From NCBI GenBank assembly GCA_008011715.2, contig CP136508.1, forward strand, positions 4,216,001 through 4,280,000: 64,000 bases of DNA, read 5' to 3'. The DNA comes from [Empedobacter] haloabium (GTDB lineage: Bacteria; Pseudomonadota; Gammaproteobacteria; Burkholderiales; Burkholderiaceae_D). The first letter of the stretch is position 1, and every line of letters begins with the position of its first letter. This document shows, in pieces, positions 34,740-63,178 of this stretch. The notes under the pieces were generated by a model that had not been told where the DNA came from, searched no databases, and saw only the letters and a list, made by a program, of their open reading frames with translations. The position numbers and the translations under genes were made by a program.

Positions 34740-36620
34740 TTACGCCACCTGGTCCAGCGCCTTGCCGGCCAGCGCGCTGCGCACGCTGCGGTCCATGCGG
34801 CGCGACGCGAATTCCTCGGTGCCGTGCGCCAGCGCTTCCACCGCCGCCTTGACGGCCGTGTGATCCACCGTGCCGGCCTGCGACTGCGCCACGATCTCGC
34901 GGGTGCGCGCCATCAGTGCATCGACGGCGGCGCGTTCCTCGTCCGACAGCAGCGCGGCATCCTCGTCCAGCGCGGCCTGGGTGGCCAGCAGGATGCGTTC
35001 CGCCTCGACCTGCTCCTCGCGCAGCGCGCGCGCCTTCATGTCCGTCTCGGCCGAGGCGTACGAATCCTGCAGCATGCGCGCGACGTCGTCGTCGCCCAGG
35101 CCGTAGGACGGTTTGACCGTGATCGACGCTTCCACGTTCGAGCGCAACTCGCGCGCCGAGACCGACAGCAAGCCGTCGGCATCGACCTGGTAGGTGATGC
35201 GGATGCGCGCCGCGCCGGCGGCCATCGGCGGGATGCCGCGCAGCTCGAAGCGCGCCAGCGAGCGGCAGTCGGCCACCAGCTCGCGTTCGCCCTGCAGCAC
35301 GTGCACCGCCAGCGCGGTCTGGCCGTCCTTGAACGTGGTGAACTCCTGGGCGCGGGCGCACGGGATCGTCGAGTTGCGCGGGATGATTTTTTCCACCAGG
35401 CCGCCCATCGTCTCGATGCCCAGCGACAGCGGGATCACGTCCAGCAGCAGCCAGTCGTCGCCCGGCGCGCGGTTCCCCGCCAGCAGGTTGGCCTGGATGG
35501 CGGCGCCCAGCGCCACCACCTTGTCCGGATCGATGTTGGCGTGCGGGATGGTGTGGAAGTATTCGCCCACGGCGCGCTGCACGTGCGGCATGCGCGTGGC
35601 GCCGCCGACCATGACGACGCCGTCGATGTCGTCCGCGTCGATGTTCGCATCGCGCAGCGCCTTCTTCACCGCGTTCATCGTCTTGGCGACCAGGTGCTTG
35701 GTGATCTCGGCGAACTTCTCGGCCGTGATCTTCAGGTGCACTTCCTCGCCGGAGGACAGGATCGCGTCGACCGTCACTTCCGCTTTCGTCGACAGCAGTT
35801 CCTTGGCCTCGCGCGCCTTGACCATCAGCACGGCGGTGTCCTCGTCGTTCAGGGGCGCCAGCTTCTCCTGCTCGTGGATCCAGCAGAACAGGCGGTGATC
35901 GAAGTCGTCGCCGCCCAGCGCGGAATCGCCGCCGGTGGACAGCACTTCGAACACGCCCTTGGACAGTTTCAGGATCGAGATGTCGAACGTGCCGCCGCCC
36001 AGGTCGTAGACGGCAAACAGGCCTTCGGACGCATTGTCCAGGCCATAGGCGATGGCAGCGGCGGTCGGCTCGGACAGCAGGCGCAGCACGTTCAGGCCGG
36101 CCAGCTGGGCCGCGTCCTTGGTCGCCTGGCGCTGCGCATCGTCGAAATACGCCGGCACGGTAATCACGGCACCGACCAGGTCATCGCCCAGCGCATCCTC
36201 GGCGCGCTGGCGCAACGTGGCCAGGATCTGGGCGGAGGTCTCGACGGGGCTCTTGACGCCGGCCACCGTTTTCAGCTGCACCATGCCGGGGGCATCGACG
36301 AAATCATATGGCAGGTTCTCGGCGTAGGCGATGTCCTTCAGGCCGCGGCCCATGAAACGCTTGACGGAAACCACCGTGTTCTTCGGGTCGGTGGTCTGCG
36401 CGGCCTGCGCCTTGTAGCCGATGTGGGCATGGCCGTTCGGCAGGTAGCGCACCACGGACGGCAGCAGCGGCCGGCCGTCCTCGTCGTTCAGCACTTCGGG
36501 AATGCTGCTGCGCACGGTCGCCACCAGCGAGTTGGTGGTGCCCAGGTCGATACCCACCGCCAGCCGGTGCTGGTGCGGCGCCGTCGACATGCCGGGTTCG
36601 GAAATTTGCAGGAGAGCCAT
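34740..36620 (-). CDS. hscA: Fe-S assembly Hsp70 chaperone HscA
   Basis: A 626-residue specialised Hsp70 that, with HscB, releases the cluster from IscU using ATP. The nucleotide-binding domain shows [49 protein letters not shown] and [15 protein letters not shown]. The substrate-binding and lid domains complete the usual length. The start is ATG 36620 ([10 protein letters not shown]), seven bases after GGAG; the longer frame to 36719 runs through the end of hscB and is a shadow. It follows hscB after 46 bases. It should recognise the LPPVK motif, which is present in IscU here (residues 99-103). Confidence 0.97.
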
Positions 36621-36666
36621 GTGAAACCTGTTCTTGTTGTGGGCGCGGGCGCGCCGTGCCTGGGAA

Positions 36667-37182
36667 TTACGCTTCGATCGCGTCGAAGGCGAAGCGCACT
36701 TCTTCGCCAAATTTTTCAAGGAACATCAGCGCGCGCACGCCCTGCGCGGCGGCGTGGTAGTCGCCGCCGTCCAGCTGGGCCTCGATGACCTGCAGCTGCT
36801 CCTTGCGGGCGGCGCGCAGTTGACCATCCAGCTTGTCGAGCAGGTCGGCATCCTTGCCGGCACGCGCCTCGGCCAGTTCCTCGCGCCACTCCATCTGCTG
36901 CATCAGGAAGGCCATCGGCATCGCCGTGTTCGACTCCGTCTGCAGGTCCACGCCGTGCAGCTCGCACAGGTACTGGGCGCGCTTCTGCGGGTTCTTCAGG
37001 GTCTGGTAGGCCTCGTTGGCGCGCGTGGCCCACTGCATCGCCACGCGCTTCTCGGCATCGGTGGCGTTGACGAATTTATCGGGGTGCACGCGCGACTGCA
37101 CGTCGCGGTAGGCCGCGTCCAGCGCGGCGCCGTCGAGCGCGAAGCGTTGCGGCAGGTTGAAGAGCTCGAAGTGGTTTTGCAC
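36667..37182 (-). CDS. hscB: Fe-S assembly co-chaperone HscB (J-protein)
   Basis: A 171-residue J-domain protein that brings IscU to HscA and stimulates its ATPase. The J domain occupies residues 1-75 with the HPD signature in [20 protein letters not shown]. The C-terminal three-helix IscU-binding domain follows ([16 protein letters not shown]). The start is a GTG at 37182 ([13 protein letters not shown]); no ATG is available at the right place. It lies between iscA (13-base gap) and hscA. Confidence 0.96.
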
Positions 37183-54320: not shown

Positions 54321-54893
54321 ATGAGCACATCGAACAATCTGCCGTCGTTCTGGAGCCGGATTCCCCTCGCCTTCAGCGCCTTCTTCAAGACCCTCGGCGA
54401 CGCCGAATTCGCCGCCCGCATCCAGCAGGGCCCGGCCCCAGTGCCGGCCGCCGCGCCGGTGACGCCGGCGCCGGCGCCTGCACCGGCGCCGGCGCCGGCC
54501 CCGCTGCGCGAAGCGACGCCGGATGCGGCCCTGCAACTGCTCGCACTGCTGCAGCGCGAAGCGCGCCTGATCGACTTCACCCAGGAAAGCCTGGCCGGCT
54601 ATGCCGACGCCGACATCGGCGCGGCCGCCCGCGTCGTCCACGAGGGCTGCGCCAAGGTGCTGCGCGAGCACTTCACCATCGAACCCGTGCGCAGCGAAGC
54701 CGAAGGCAGCCGCGTGACCCTGGACGCGGGCTTCGACGCCGCCGCCGTGCGCCTGACCGGCAACGTCGTCGGCCAGCCGCCGTTCAAGGGCGCGCTGAGC
54801 CACCGCGGCTGGCGCGCCACCAGCGTGCGCCTGCCGAAGCTGGCCGAAGCGCATGACGCCAAGATCCTGGCGCCGGCGGAGGTGGAACTGTGA
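54321..54893 (+). CDS. DUF2760 protein of the twin-Hsp70 operon
   Basis: A 190-residue protein. The N terminus contains an amphipathic helix (FWSRIPLAFSAFFKTLGDAEFAARI, in parts), then a low-complexity Ala-Pro linker (PAPAPAPAPAPAP, about residues 42-62). A compact DUF2760 domain follows (ALQLLALLQREARLIDFTQE, VVHEGCAKVLREHF, PPFKGALSHRGWRA). It is probably soluble; function unknown. It is translationally coupled to the first Hsp70 gene (GTGA overlap), and this gene order is known from other proteobacteria, so it likely serves as a partner or client adaptor. An extended -10 (TGG-TATCAT, 54248-54256) is the only promoter-like signal. Confidence 0.82.
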   Translation: MSTSNNLPSFWSRIPLAFSAFFKTLGDAEFAARIQQGPAPVPAAAPVTPAPAPAPAPAPAPLREATPDAALQLLALLQREARLIDFTQESLAGYADADIGAAARVVHEGCAKVLREHFTIEPVRSEAEGSRVTLDAGFDAAAVRLTGNVVGQPPFKGALSHRGWRATSVRLPKLAEAHDAKILAPAEVEL

Positions 54894-56737
54894 GCGATCC
54901 GCGCTACGCCATCGGCATCGACCTGGGCACGACGCACAGCGCCCTGTCTTATGTGGACCTGGCCGGCAGCGACGGCGAGAAGACCCGGCAGGCCGTGCTG
55001 GGCGTGCCCCAGCTGACCGGTCCCGGCACCGTTGAGGACCTGCCGCTGCTGCCCTCCTTCCTGTACCTGCCGCACCCGGACGAGATGGCCGCCGCCGAAC
55101 TGGCGCTGCCATGGAACGCCAGCGGCACCGGCCCGGTGGCGGGCGAGATGGCCCGCGCGCGCGGCGCCACCACGCCGATCCGCCTGGTCTCCAGTGCCAA
55201 GAGCTGGCTGTGCCACCCCGGCGTGGACCGGCGCGCCCCGATCCTGCCGAACGACGCGCCGGAGGAAGTCACGCGCGTGTCGCCGCTGGAAGCCTCCACG
55301 CGCTACCTGCAGCACCTGCGCCAGGCCTGGGACACGGCCCACCCGGACGCGCCGTTCACGCAGCAGGCCGTGACGGTGACGATCCCGGCGTCCTTCGACC
55401 CGGGCGCGCGCGAGCTGACCGCCGAGGCGGCGCGCAACGCCGGCTATGAAGCCGTCACCTTGCTGGAAGAACCGCAGGCCGCGCTGTACAGCTGGATCCA
55501 GGGCAGCGACGGCCGCTGGCGCAAGGACGTCAAGCCGGGCGACATCATCCTGGTGGTGGACGTGGGCGGCGGTACCAGCGACTTCTCGCTGATCGCCATC
55601 ACCGAGCGCGACGGCAAGCTGGAGCCGCACCGCGTGGCGGTGGGCGACCATATCCTGCTGGGTGGCGACAATATGGACCTGGCGCTGGCCCACCTGGTGG
55701 CGCGCAAGCTGGCCACCAACGGCACGCAACTGGACCCGTGGCAGCTGCGGGCGCTGACCTACGGCTGCCGCGCGGCCAAGGAAAACCTGCTGGCCGACGC
55801 CAGCGCGGAAAGCTGGCCGATCGTGGTGCCGAGCCGCGGCTCGAAGCTGATCGGCGGTTCGATCCGCACCGAACTGACGCGCGCCGAAGTGACCACCTTC
55901 ATCACGGACGGCTTCTTCCCGAAAGTCGAAGCCTCCGCGCGCCCGGCCGTGCGCACCCGCGCCGGCCTGACGCAACTGGGCCTGCCGTACGCGCAGGACG
56001 CCGCCATCACCCGCCACCTGGCCGCCTTCCTGGCCCGCCAGGTCGGCGCGACGGCCGACGTGCCGGGCTTCGCCGAGCGCCAGAACCCGGAGCACACCTT
56101 CCTGCATCCGAGCGCGGTGCTGTTCAACGGCGGCGTGTTCAAGTCGGCCCTCTTGGCCCAGCGCGTGATGGACACCATCAACGACTGGCTGTACATGGAA
56201 GGCGCCGAGCCCGCGCGCATGCTGGGCGGCGCGGACCTGGACCTGGCCGTGGCGCGCGGCGCCGCGTACTACAGCTACGTGCGGCGCGGCGCCGGCGTGC
56301 GCATCCGCGGCGGCACGGCCCGTTCGTACTACGTGGCCGTCGAGTCGTCGATGCCGGCCATCCCAGGCATGGAGCCGCCGATCCAGGCGCTGTGCGTGGC
56401 GCCGTTCGGCATGGAGGAAGGCAGCGAGCTGGAACTGCCGGGCCAGGAGTTCGGCCTGGTGGTCGGCGAGCCTGTACAGTTCCGCTTCTTCGGCTCCTCC
56501 ACCCGTCGCCAGGACCAGATCGGCGACGTGCTGGACTTCTGGGGTCCGGAAGAGCTGATCGAGATGAACGAGATCCAGGCCAACCTGTCGCCCGAAGGCC
56601 GCCAGGCCGGCGACGTGGTGCAGGTGCGCCTGCACGCGCGCGCCACCGAGGCCGGCACGCTGGAACTGCTGGCGGTGGCCCGCGACGGCCAGCGCTGGAA
56701 GGTCGAGTTCGACGTGCGCGCGCAGGACGCCCAATAA
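54890..56737 (+). CDS. Divergent Hsp70-family protein (first of pair)
   Basis: A 615-residue Hsp70 relative. The ATPase domain has the phosphate-1 motif AIGIDLGTTHSALSYV, phosphate-2 LVVDVGGGTSDFSLI and an adenosine-type segment HPSAVLFNGGVFKSALL. Unlike DnaK, the C-terminal 170 residues form a beta-rich domain without the EEVD-like tail or the clear helical lid. HscA and DnaK are about 620 residues but differ in these parts. It starts with GTG 54890, overlapping the DUF2760 stop. It lies before a larger Hsp70 with DUF3731. It probably works with DUF2760 and the second Hsp70; the client is unknown. Confidence 0.9.
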   Translation: MSDPRYAIGIDLGTTHSALSYVDLAGSDGEKTRQAVLGVPQLTGPGTVEDLPLLPSFLYLPHPDEMAAAELALPWNASGTGPVAGEMARARGATTPIRLVSSAKSWLCHPGVDRRAPILPNDAPEEVTRVSPLEASTRYLQHLRQAWDTAHPDAPFTQQAVTVTIPASFDPGARELTAEAARNAGYEAVTLLEEPQAALYSWIQGSDGRWRKDVKPGDIILVVDVGGGTSDFSLIAITERDGKLEPHRVAVGDHILLGGDNMDLALAHLVARKLATNGTQLDPWQLRALTYGCRAAKENLLADASAESWPIVVPSRGSKLIGGSIRTELTRAEVTTFITDGFFPKVEASARPAVRTRAGLTQLGLPYAQDAAITRHLAAFLARQVGATADVPGFAERQNPEHTFLHPSAVLFNGGVFKSALLAQRVMDTINDWLYMEGAEPARMLGGADLDLAVARGAAYYSYVRRGAGVRIRGGTARSYYVAVESSMPAIPGMEPPIQALCVAPFGMEEGSELELPGQEFGLVVGEPVQFRFFGSSTRRQDQIGDVLDFWGPEELIEMNEIQANLSPEGRQAGDVVQVRLHARATEAGTLELLAVARDGQRWKVEFDVRAQDAQ

Positions 56738-56747
56738 GCCCGCGCGC

Positions 56748-59591
56748 ATGAAGCCGAGCCACGGCCAGTACCTGGTCAGCATCGACCTGGGCACCACCAA
56801 CACGGTCCTGGCGTATGCCGCGCCGGGGTCGCGCGACATCGAGCTGTTCGCCATCGAGCAGCTCACGGCGCCCGGCGAAGTGGGCGCCGCCACCCTGCTG
56901 CCGTCCGCACGCTACCACCCGGCCATGGGCGAACTGGCCGCCGGCGACCTGCAACTGCCGTGGCGCGAGGCCGACGTGGCCGGCGTGCCGGAAGTCGTGA
57001 TCGGCCGTTTGGCGCGGCGCCTGGGCGCGCAGGTGCCGGGCCGCATGGTGGCCAGCGCCAAGAGCTGGCTGTCGCACCCCGGCGTCGACCGCACGGCGCC
57101 CATCCTGCCCTGGGGCGCCAGCCACGAGGTGGCGCAAGTCTCGCCCGTCGCCGCCAGCGCCAGCTACCTGGCACACCTGCGCGGTGCCTGGAACACCCGC
57201 TTCCCTGCCCACCCGCTCGAGCGCCAGCAGATCGTGCTGACGATTCCCGCGTCGTTCGACGAGGGTGCCCGCGCGCTGACCCTGGAAGCGGCCCGCCTGG
57301 CCGGCCTGGCCGACGTGCGCCTGCTGGAGGAACCGCAGGCCGCCCTGTACGACTGGCTGTACCGCCATCGCGACACGCTGGCGGCCGACCTGCACGACAC
57401 CCGCCTGGTCTTGGTGGCGGACGTGGGCGGCGGCACCACCGACTTCTCGCTGGTGCGGGTGGATATCGAACATGGCGAACCCGTGCTGACCCGGATCGGC
57501 GTGGGCAACCACCTGATCCTGGGCGGCGACAATATGGACCTGGCGCTGGCGCACCTGGCCGAATCGCGCCTGCCGGCCCAGCAGGCGACTGCAGAAGCGG
57601 CCCCGGCGCGGCTGACGGCCGGCCGCCTGGCGCAGCTGACGGAACGCTGCCGCGGCGCCAAGGAGGAGCTGCTGGCGCAGGATGCGCCGGCGCAGGTCAA
57701 CGTCACGCTGCTGGGCAGCGGCTCCAAGCTGATCGGCGGCAGCCGCACCGTCACCTTGACGAAACAGGATGTCGAAGGCATCGTGGTGGACGGCTTCTTC
57801 CCGCTGAACGCCGGACAGGAAGGCGCGCGCCGCGGCCGCGGCGCCATCGTCGAATTCGGCCTGCCGTATGCCAGCGACGCGGCCGTCACGCGCCACTTGG
57901 TCTCGTTCCTGCGCCAGCACCAGGTCGCCGCGCACGCCGCGCTGGGCAGCGAAGGGGACAGCCTGCCCGTGCCCGATACCTTGCTGCTGAACGGCGGCGT
58001 GTTCCGCGCCGATGCGCTGGCGCGCCGTCTCGAGGCCACGCTGGACGGCTGGCGCGGCGCGCCCGTCAAGGTACTCCACAACGACAATCCCGACGTTGCC
58101 GTGGCCCGCGGCGGCGTCGCCTACACGCTGGCGCGGCACGGCTTCGCGCCCGCCATCGAGGGCGGCTCGCCGCGCAGCTACTGGCTGCTGCTCGATGGCG
58201 ACAAGGCGCCCGGCGTGGCGCGCCGCGGCGTCTGCATCCTGCCGCGCGGCACCCAGCCGGGCCGCGAGGTCAGGCTGACCGACCGCACCTTCGCGCTGCG
58301 CGTGGGCCGGCCGGTGCGCTTCCACCTCGTCTCCACCGTGGCCGATGCCGGCGAACGCGCCGGCGACGTGGGCGAACTCGATCCGGCCGACTTCATCGCG
58401 CTGCCGCCGATCGCCATGGTGCTGCAGCTGGCCGGCAGCGCGGCGCGCAAGGAGGTGCCGGTGCAGCTGGCGGTGGCACTTTCCGAGGTCGGCACGCTGG
58501 AGGTGCACTGCGTCGAAGCGGGTCGCGCCGACGGCCAGCGCTGGCTGCTGGAATTCCAGCTGCGCGGCCAGGAAGAGGAAGGCGCCGAGGTGCAGGAAGA
58601 GGCGCCGCCGCCGCGCTTTGCCGATGCAGTCGAACGGATCGAGCGCATCTTCGGCGGCCGCGCGCAGCAGGTCGACGTCAAGGAAGTACGGCAGCTGCGC
58701 GGCCAGCTCGAGCAGCTCCTGGGCAGCCGCGAACGCTGGGCCACGCCGCTGCTGAGGCGCCTGTTCGACGCGCTGATGGAACGCGCCAAGGGGCGGCGCC
58801 GCTCGCCCGAGCACGAGCGCGTCTGGATGAATCTCGCCGGCTTCTGCCTGCGCCCCGGCTTCGGCCATCCGCTCGACGACTGGCGCATCGGCCAGCTGTG
58901 GGCGCTGTTCGAGAGCGGCGTGCAGTACCAGAAGGAGCGCCAGGTGCGCGCCGAATGGTGGACGTTATGGCGCCGCGTGGCCGGTGGCCTGGACAAGGAC
59001 GCGCAATTGCGCCTGCTGGACGACTTCGCGTTCAACCTGCAGGCCAGCGGCGAGGAGCGCAGCCGCCGCCCCGTGACCCTGGTCGAGGGCGCGGAGGAAG
59101 ACATGCTGCGCCTGGGCGCCGCGCTGGAGCGCATCCCGTCCGCCTACAAGGCGGAGATCGGCAACTGGATGCTGGGCCAGATCGTCGCGCTGCCCGCTGC
59201 CGGTCCCAAGTTCGACGCCAAGGCGGCCGCCGCCTTCACGCGCTACCTGTGGGCGCTGGGCCGGGTCGGCGCGCGCCAGCCGTTCCACGGCAGCGCGCAC
59301 GAAGTCGCCCCCAAGGCCACCGTCGAGGAATGGCTGCAGGCCATCCTGCAGCTGGACTGGAAGAAGATCGAGCCGGCCGGCTTTGCCGCCGCGCACCTGG
59401 CGCGCCGCACGGGCGACCGCTCGCGCGACATCGACGACACCTTGCGCGCCGAGATCGTGCGGCGCTTGACAAGCGTGGGCGCCCCGCCCACCTGGGCGGC
59501 AATGGTGCGCGACGTGGTGGAACTGGACCACGCCAGCGAACAGCGCATGTTCGGCGAGGCGCTGCCGCCCGGCTTGAAGCTGATCGGCTAG
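56748..59591 (+). CDS. Large Hsp70-family protein with C-terminal DUF3731
   Basis: A 947-residue protein: ATPase domain with SIDLGTTNTVLAYA, LVADVGGGTTDFSLV and PDTLLLNGGVFRADAL; a beta-rich middle region (about residues 470-620); then a helical C-terminal part (about 640-940, DUF3731-like) with VWMNLAGFCLRPGFGHPLDDWRI and EWWTLWRRVAGGLDKDAQL. ATP-binding residues look intact. It starts ten bases after the first Hsp70 gene, and their ATPase domains are clearly related (SAKSWLCHPGVDR versus SAKSWLSHPGVDR). Its TAG stop shares a CTAG with the stop of the convergent DTW gene. Confidence 0.9.
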   Translation: MKPSHGQYLVSIDLGTTNTVLAYAAPGSRDIELFAIEQLTAPGEVGAATLLPSARYHPAMGELAAGDLQLPWREADVAGVPEVVIGRLARRLGAQVPGRMVASAKSWLSHPGVDRTAPILPWGASHEVAQVSPVAASASYLAHLRGAWNTRFPAHPLERQQIVLTIPASFDEGARALTLEAARLAGLADVRLLEEPQAALYDWLYRHRDTLAADLHDTRLVLVADVGGGTTDFSLVRVDIEHGEPVLTRIGVGNHLILGGDNMDLALAHLAESRLPAQQATAEAAPARLTAGRLAQLTERCRGAKEELLAQDAPAQVNVTLLGSGSKLIGGSRTVTLTKQDVEGIVVDGFFPLNAGQEGARRGRGAIVEFGLPYASDAAVTRHLVSFLRQHQVAAHAALGSEGDSLPVPDTLLLNGGVFRADALARRLEATLDGWRGAPVKVLHNDNPDVAVARGGVAYTLARHGFAPAIEGGSPRSYWLLLDGDKAPGVARRGVCILPRGTQPGREVRLTDRTFALRVGRPVRFHLVSTVADAGERAGDVGELDPADFIALPPIAMVLQLAGSAARKEVPVQLAVALSEVGTLEVHCVEAGRADGQRWLLEFQLRGQEEEGAEVQEEAPPPRFADAVERIERIFGGRAQQVDVKEVRQLRGQLEQLLGSRERWATPLLRRLFDALMERAKGRRRSPEHERVWMNLAGFCLRPGFGHPLDDWRIGQLWALFESGVQYQKERQVRAEWWTLWRRVAGGLDKDAQLRLLDDFAFNLQASGEERSRRPVTLVEGAEEDMLRLGAALERIPSAYKAEIGNWMLGQIVALPAAGPKFDAKAAAAFTRYLWALGRVGARQPFHGSAHEVAPKATVEEWLQAILQLDWKKIEPAGFAAAHLARRTGDRSRDIDDTLRAEIVRRLTSVGAPPTWAAMVRDVVELDHASEQRMFGEALPPGLKLIG

Positions 59592-61973: not shown

Positions 61974-62627
61974 TCAGGCCGCGCGCAGGCGCTGCGGCAC
62001 GGCGATCGGGCGATCGACGGGATAGAACGGCACCAGCTGCAGCCGGTCCAGCAACGGCGCGCCGAACTGGCGCACCAGCGCTGGCCGGATCAGCAGTTCC
62101 AGCTCCAGCGGCGCCGGCAGCGCCGGGCCGGCGCGGCCACGGCAGGCCTGGGCGATGGTCTGCACGCCGATATCGGTGGTGGCCATGACGATGGCCTGGC
62201 GCACGTCGGCGCCGTCCAGCGTCCCGTGCGCCAGCACCTGGCGCAACAGCGTGAGGGTGGCCGGGTGGGCCCGTTCCAGGCGGTCCAGCAGCAGCACGCG
62301 GTGCGGATCGCGGCGCAGCAGGTCGGCCAGCACATGCCGCAGCGCCAGCACTTCATGCTGCCGGGTGCATGCCGCCATGTCGACGGCGATCAGCGCATGG
62401 GCGCCGCCGTACACCAGTTCGGCCAGCGCCAGCGCCGTGCGCGTGCGACCGGCTTCGCCCGGACCGACGAACAGGCCGGACGCCAACGGCCCGTCCGGAT
62501 CGCCCCGGCCGGCACGGGCGGCACGCAGGCGCTGCGTCACGGTGGCGATCGCGTGCAGCTGGCCGGGCACGCGGTCGTGCAGGCGCAGGTGCAGGTCGTG
62601 CGGTATCGTGGTTGCAAGACTCATCAT
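61974..62627 (-). CDS. Truncated, degenerate ClpV-like AAA+ protein
   Basis: A 217-residue protein that aligns by eye with the large subdomain of the second AAA+ module of ClpV (TssH), normally about 880 residues. Matching stretches: [83 protein letters not shown]. Walker A has Arg61 instead of Lys (GEAGRT), and Walker B reads LLLDR with Arg116 instead of the catalytic Glu. The pore-loop region is also shortened. It is thus probably unable to hydrolyse ATP. Start ATG 62627; ATG 62624 is an alternative. It lies downstream of hcp beyond a terminator. It may be a regulatory or scaffold relict, or a decaying gene. Confidence 0.75.
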
Positions 62628-62641
62628 GCTCGGTTCTCTCG

Positions 62642-62668
62642 AAAAAAAGCCGCGACGAACGCCGCGGC
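62642..62668 (-). terminator. Rho-independent terminator after hcp
   Basis: On the minus strand, GCCGCG and CGCGGC form a stem with an eight-base loop followed by seven T. It lies 18 bases after the hcp stop and 15 before the ClpV-like ATG, so that gene depends on read-through or its own start. Confidence 0.8.
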
Positions 62669-62686: not shown

Positions 62687-63178
62687 TCAGACAATGCGGT
62701 TGGCGGCCAGGTCCCAGCCGCCGGAGGTGTTGCCGCCGGCGCCGCCAGTGATCTTCTGCTGGGTGTAGCGCCAGCGCACCTTGGAGAACTTCAGCGCCAC
62801 CGATTCGGTCAGGATGTCGCCTTCCTTCACTTCCGGCGTGACCTTGCCGATCAGGACGTTCTCGATCTCGATCTCGTAGTACTTGATGCGCTCGCCCATC
62901 GCGTCGGCGCGCATGAATTCCAGCTTCGCTTTCGGGATGGTCTTGCCCGCGGCGCATGTCTGCAGCAGCACCGGCGAGGACAGGTCGGCCAGCTTGGTGA
63001 TGAGAATGTCCTGGTGCTCGCAGCGCTCGGCCGTGTGGCCGCCGCCGGTGGAGGCGGTGGCGGACTTGGGCTGCAGCACGCCCCAGCCCACCGATTTGCA
63101 TTCGATCCATTCCTTGTGTTTTTCGTCCGTGGACTCCCCCTTGATGCCGTCAATTTGCAAGTAGACGTCGATAGCCAT
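62687..63178 (-). CDS. hcp: Hcp, type VI secretion tube protein
   Basis: A 163-residue protein of the Hcp family, whose hexameric rings stack into the inner tube of the type VI secretion system. The sequence begins MAIDVYLQIDGIKGESTDEKH and has the family's CKSVGWGV, LADLSSPVLLQTCAAG and YYEIEIENVLIGKV strands. It ends in a Gly-rich tail (GGAGGNTSGGWDLAANRIV). Length is normal, without an added effector domain. It is preceded by a lipoprotein gene on the same strand and followed by a strong terminator. Other T6SS genes probably lie beyond the window's right edge. Confidence 0.95.
   Translation of the reverse strand: MAIDVYLQIDGIKGESTDEKHKEWIECKSVGWGVLQPKSATASTGGGHTAERCEHQDILITKLADLSSPVLLQTCAAGKTIPKAKLEFMRADAMGERIKYYEIEIENVLIGKVTPEVKEGDILTESVALKFSKVRWRYTQQKITGGAGGNTSGGWDLAANRIV

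Follow-up and report, generated by a model that had tools for sequence, protein, structure and literature searches.

A conserved operon of a DUF2760 protein and two divergent Hsp70-type proteins in [Empedobacter] haloabium and other proteobacteria

Three types of Hsp70 are distinguished in prokaryotes, DnaK, HscA, and HscC, and HscA is an example of a bacterial Hsp70 variant found beside DnaK (passages of a 2021 review, PMC8215388). When analyzing the genome of [Empedobacter] haloabium (assembly GCA_008011715.2), we noticed in a stretch of 64,000 nucleotides (contig CP136508.1, positions 4,216,001 to 4,280,000, the whole of which is called the window here) an operon encoding a DUF2760 protein and two Hsp70-type proteins, A and B. 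The sequence comparisons reported here indicate that it is a real, widespread, and apparently uncharacterized Hsp70-type unit of many proteobacteria, distinct from DnaK and HscA by curated cutoffs. An earlier note on this DNA had read it as a dedicated chaperone machine; the conserved, co-inherited, and separate trio of genes supports that reading in part, while the chaperone and complex nature of the products is a matter of what we infer, namely, that the three proteins may bind each other, act as chaperones, be tethered to the membrane, and work independently of J-proteins. At roughly even odds (about 0.5), the operon would encode a self-contained Hsp70-type machine at the cytoplasmic face of the inner membrane, with the DUF2760 protein as tether and cofactor of the A/B pair.

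The three open reading frames (ORFs) lie on the plus strand at exactly the coordinates first given for them (54321..54893, 54890..56737, and 56748..59591). They form a tight operon, in which the DUF2760 stop overlaps the A start by 4 bases and a gap of 10 bases separates A from B. In A (615 amino acids, GTG start), the ATPase domain is followed by a C-terminal domain of some 150 residues, and DUF3731 is absent. B (947 amino acids) is a paralog of A across about 610 residues and carries in addition a DUF3731 domain at residues 686 to 945 (58803..59582, plus strand; PF12531, E value of 1.6e-95, 320.2 bits against a cutoff of 25). PF00012 matches at residues 129 to 340 of A and 130 to 319 of B, confined to the ATPase part, with 59 and 53.7 bits against a cutoff of 20.6, which places both in the Hsp70 superfamily. 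The ATP motifs had been described as intact in the window, and they are so across both families: in alignments of 97 A rows (one actually a B fragment) and 89 B rows, the equivalents of what we take to be DnaK D8, T11, K70, E171, D194, G196, T199, and D201, with their presumed catalytic roles, are unchanged in every ungapped row.

Window A and window B share 45% identity along the whole length of A, and the figure for window A against B proteins from 12 other loci is 34 to 41%. A tree built on 55 ATPase domains groups the A proteins in one clade (SH-aLRT of 97), and the same lineages recur within A and within B, so that the duplication probably predates their divergence. The tree does not show the B proteins as a single clade (two changes, with a fork left open), and it comes with a long-branch warning from the tool. 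By alignment and tree, A and B are ancient Hsp70 paralogs with complete ATPase residues.

A and B share with the DnaK-DnaJ-GrpE system an ATPase domain of the Hsp70 type in which the catalytic residues are complete. They differ in having no substrate or lid domain of DnaK detectable by profile and in their altered J-contact residues, and the operon has two unequal Hsp70s with a DUF2760 protein and no DnaJ or GrpE among the scanned window neighbors. The DnaK model TIGR02350 gives 53.7 bits for A and 47.5 for B, against a cutoff of 822.55. For both proteins, the best NCBIfam matches are to HscA models, but at 74 to 80 bits against cutoffs of 620 and 708.55 (with TIGR01991, whose cutoff is 708.55, 79.7 for A and 74.4 for B). 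Unlike HscB, the operon partner of A and B is not a J-protein by Pfam profile. A true, full-length hscA lies elsewhere in the window (34740-36719, minus strand), in agreement with the earlier observation that the usual kind of Hsp70 is separate here. The J-domain match closest to the operon is about 17 kb off, about 0.25 kb beyond the hscA start, and is taken to be hscB.

Like HscC and the proteins of model PRK11678, which we take to be YegD, A and B are divergent bacterial Hsp70s alongside DnaK. However, A reaches only 25.9 bits and B 30.6, against 331 for PRK11678; they are longer and paired, and share the host with a 419-residue protein of that kind (YegD-like). No HscC model was among the profile matches of A and B, in searches that included no HscC-specific test. 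Eukaryotic Hsp70 and Hsp110 are likewise two related Hsp70s, one with an extra C-terminal part; this is an analogy only, and the extension of B differs in having no match to the DnaK lid. The host genome, one contig of 6.48 Mb, has separate dnaK, hscA, and YegD-like genes and six J-domain matches.

Conservation of the three-gene unit

We investigated the distribution of the three genes in genomes drawn from Pseudomonadota. Among 200 genomes, DUF2760 was found in 15, a full-length A-like protein (at least 45% identity) in the same 15, and DUF3731 in 14 of these; no DUF2760, A, or DUF3731 was seen as an orphan. In the genome without DUF3731 (G026), the contig stops about 85 bases after A, leaving any B out of view. 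Seven other genomes match A over partial length with E values of 2e-18 or weaker; we take these matches for DnaK or HscA, and two of them (G008 and G022) coincide with DnaK-model matches. Across 398 genomes, DUF3731 was present in 26, from 11 of 212 genera, and all 13 further DUF3731 genomes had DUF2760 upstream on the same contig and strand. Taking both samples together, both domains were present in 27 genomes and collinear in 26, the exception (G053) having them on two contigs. The earlier note had named a gene order not conserved outside this strain as a point of refutation, and the order proved to be conserved. These counts show an association beyond chance and support the view that the three genes are a conserved, co-inherited unit, apart from dnaK and hscA and sometimes on plasmids. 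At locus L044:8011-10801, which belongs to genome G053, a frameshift or an assembly error splits B into two ORFs.

We further compared 80 named loci found through DUF2760; these are the best 80 of 570 relatives, a narrow and non-independent circle of mostly close kin of the window. A follows in 80 of 80, and B was found in 76. Of the four loci without B, L118 and L122 have A cut by the contig end, and L120 and L124 belong to genomes with a DUF3731 match elsewhere. For L120, from Comamonas, this match would be some 22 kb downstream of DUF2760, provided that genome contig C1 is the locus contig. The contig end also cuts B in L090 and L116. Spacing is -10 to 150 nucleotides (nt) between DUF2760 and A in 94 of 95 loci and -60 to 150 nt between A and B in 81 of 88. 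Genes between A and B, which look like lineage-specific inserts, occur in L030, L120, and L123 (porin-like by our own reading of the sequence) and in L121, from an Accumulibacter genome, where a coiled-coil-like SPOR-domain protein separates the two (L121:8612-10054). No recurrent neighbor emerged when Pfam was run on 82 flanking ORFs of 21 loci, out of 227 picked in 28 loci by an ORF picking that is approximate in GC-rich DNA; the commonest family, GGDEF, was seen in 3.

The DUF2760 protein and a possible place at the membrane

The window DUF2760 protein has 190 residues and matches PF10816 at residues 67 to 189 with an E value of 2.1e-56 and 189.5 bits, against a cutoff of 25. Family alignments place the conserved region in the last 120 or so residues (67 to 190 in the window protein, 54519..54890, plus strand), ending in APAEVEL or a near variant, and this tail is kept also at loci where the gene does not overlap A. 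The N terminus varies by lineage, as judged by eye and by Kyte-Doolittle value. Family f15, here labeled Vibrio-type after the name of the entries that its sequences match, has one hydrophobic segment; family f30 and the Bradyrhizobium proteins have two; and most beta-type proteins have a short stretch of amphipathic character. The Kyte-Doolittle mean over 19 residues exceeds 1.6 in 13 of 97 DUF2760 rows, and the maximum in the window protein is 0.94. Residues 8 to 25 of the window protein (54342..54395, plus strand) are a candidate amphipathic membrane helix, with a hydrophobic moment of 0.44 versus 0.23 in shuffles (p of 0.024). The beta-type motif is found in 68 of 98 rows, with a mean moment of 0.43 versus 0.24 when shuffled and a median p of 0.036.

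The hydrophobic segments are followed by basic residues, an arrangement that, under the positive-inside rule, would place the DUF2760 domain in the cytoplasm. A membrane tether is the simplest reading of dissimilar N termini that share one property. The Ala-Pro linker to which attention had been drawn is present in the window protein (54423..54518, plus strand) but appears incidental, since linker sequence differs among lineages: relatives have other sequence, with VEK repeats in the Vibrio- and Comamonas-type members. By these alignments, the informative parts are the membrane-type N terminus and the conserved C-terminal domain, a point new in this analysis.

In the mechanism that we favor, the cytoplasmic DUF2760 domain would tether A, and B through A or directly, near the membrane, and may take over part of the work that a J-protein or a nucleotide exchange factor does for DnaK. 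A and B would be an unequal ATPase pair in which B, the larger of the two, would have a regulatory or exchange role in loose analogy to Hsp110 alongside Hsp70, and the clients would be membrane-proximal or newly inserted proteins. Taken to its full extent, this would make the operon a fourth kind of bacterial Hsp70 system, a membrane-anchored, J-independent heteropair in which DUF2760 replaces the J-protein and B is an Hsp110-like exchanger for A acting on membrane-proximal clients; that extension is tentative and, as a whole, rather unlikely.

J-domain contacts and C-terminal domains

R167, Q378, E206, D211, E217, and the linker are J-domain contacts of DnaK according to the review passages (PMC8215388). 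In protein A, R167 is replaced by T in 79 of 96 ungapped rows, E206 by A in 89 of 97, E217 by H in 76 of 97, and Q378 by Y or F in 95 of 97; the hydrophobic linker string is seen in 0 of 96 A rows versus 31 of 31 DnaK rows. In B, the equivalents are K or R for E206 (57 of 89 rows), T or S for E217 (66 of 89), and Y or F for Q378 (84 of 89). At N170, which we take to be a further contact and which is absent from the review passages, every ungapped A and B row has E. By these alignments, A has lost most of the J-contact surface, and B is a mixed case.

The C-terminal parts had been called unlike those of DnaK, and at profile level this was borne out. The isolated C-terminal domain, which in window A comprises residues 470 to 612 (56297..56725, plus strand), gave no hhalign match to the DnaK substrate-binding domain SBD-beta (E values of 0.47 for A and 0.67 for B), nor did DUF3731 alone to the DnaK lid (E value of 0.83). 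Searches of the PDB with alignments of DUF2760, DUF3731, and the C-terminal domain of A had best E values of 1, 0.42, and 0.46, so that DUF3731 has no significant match among the solved structures searched. With Pfam, the C-terminal domain of A showed only a subthreshold OB-fold match (E value of 0.048).

Several observations weigh against a self-contained machine at the membrane. The amphipathic-helix signal is moderate in strength. In an HMM-HMM comparison, DnaK aligns along the length of A with a probability of 99.8, and this full-length alignment passes through the substrate domain; the profiles compared are low in diversity (Neff of about 2 to 3), and a missed match to the substrate domain is not the same as its absence. 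Of the B rows, 76 of 89 keep R167 as R, and 57 of 88 have an LLLD-like string, further from the ATPase domain than in DnaK, so that B may still be recognized by a J-protein. The Thiodictyon plasmid pTs485 (L125:8327-10845) has DUF2760 and A with no DUF3731 on the record, so B may be dispensable.

The alternative that survives best is that A and B are specialized Hsp70 paralogs still using the J-proteins and GrpE of the cell, with DUF2760 only a client adaptor or membrane recruiter. It sits badly with the replacement of Q378, and mostly of E206, in both families, with the further loss of R167, E217, and the linker string in A, and with the E at the presumed N170 contact throughout. The six J-domain matches in the genome, the contact residue and the string kept in B, and the precedent of HscA as a variant beside DnaK (PMC8215388) speak in its favor. 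A tblastn search with four host J-domains (HscB and a fifth J-domain excluded, dnaJ recovered as control) tells against it, with matches in 3 of 98 operon loci and none in an immediate neighbor of the trio. Overall, we regard this alternative as unlikely. The absence of an adjacent J-protein or exchange factor, as first described, was seen again when the window neighbors were scanned with Pfam; DnaJ and GrpE were outside the listed 25 of 117 flank families, a list that leaves out single occurrences and involved no dedicated GrpE search, and the 82 ORFs included the J-domain gene of L114. That gene, from a Competibacteraceae genome, encodes a protein with a C-terminal J-domain upstream of the trio (L114:2844-3458), from which it is separated by a response-regulator-like gene of the opposite strand.

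A and B could also be nonchaperone ATPases of the ASKHA fold (the fold of MreB, YegD, and EutJ) and, anchored by DUF2760, could have an assembly or signaling role at the membrane. This would fit C-terminal parts that match no substrate-binding domain and a partner that looks membrane bound, and MreB profiles do match the ATPase part of A and B weakly, but HscA and DnaK, not actin-like proteins, are the best family matches, and the DnaK profile alignment spans the whole of A; we therefore consider it quite unlikely.

Plasmids, surroundings, and literature

DUF2760 and the Hsp70s matched 11 of 72,556 plasmid records, the same 11 for both, with B covered over at least 80% of its length in 10. The whole trio is on two conjugative Bradyrhizobium plasmids (L126 and L127), in surroundings that differ between the two, and on one of them it lies about 1 kb upstream of groES-groEL. 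The DUF2760-A pair of pTs485 is near genes annotated as anti-phage. No match was found in 50,697 phage records; PADLOC gave one weak match (PDC-M61B), and two PHROGs matched, in each case to the ATPase domain only. That the unit is a mobile accessory cassette for stress or defense and not a housekeeping machine would suit these plasmid contexts and the patchy occurrence of DUF3731 (26 of 398 genomes) but is highly improbable given the rarity on plasmids, the phage and PADLOC results, the host copy on a single 6.5-Mb contig, and the lack of a recurrent neighbor in the scanned flanks.

In the window, a radical SAM gene on the opposite strand lies upstream of the trio, and a convergent DTW-domain gene downstream overlaps the B end by 4 bases. 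The neighbors scanned with Pfam were radical SAM, ChaC, LysR, and PfkB upstream and DTW, MCP, AAA_2, and Hcp downstream; a promoter scan found no site. Among the matches listed, a protein named Pseudoduganella armeniaca is 97% identical to the B of the window. Further downstream, a type VI secretion system Hcp gene (62687-63178) adjoins a short AAA_2 protein (61992-62645), both on the minus strand, and the latter reads like part of a ClpV-type ATPase.

The unit had been called undescribed, and neither DUF2760, DUF3731, nor their Pfam numbers appeared in any paper reached by full-text search, which most subscription papers lie outside. The operon is probably VC1375-1373 of Vibrio cholerae, judging from the "DnaK-related" annotation, the gene numbering, and the DUF2760 proteins of that species. 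In the passages available, HapR is an activator of the VC1375 promoter, both in vivo and in vitro (PMC10328515). VC1374 scored once in a screen for biofilm-repressed genes (PMC9201469) and is listed with the transcripts that set a vc1639 mutant apart from the wild type (PMC5636140), and VC1373 appears in a list from a study of riboflavin and iron (PMC5816637). These reports suggest cell-density control of the operon and give no function. Three other papers (PMC3706606, PMC4943939, and PMC6413534) only name "DnaK-related" proteins in the passages available and could not be tied to this family, and in two further listings the number had an unrelated meaning.

If the operon does encode a J-independent or membrane-tethered Hsp70 machine, it would represent a second way of driving the Hsp70 cycle. 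The unit is present in tractable hosts, with the DUF2760 protein in Vibrio natriegens, among the matches listed, and the trio in Massilia and Janthinobacterium.

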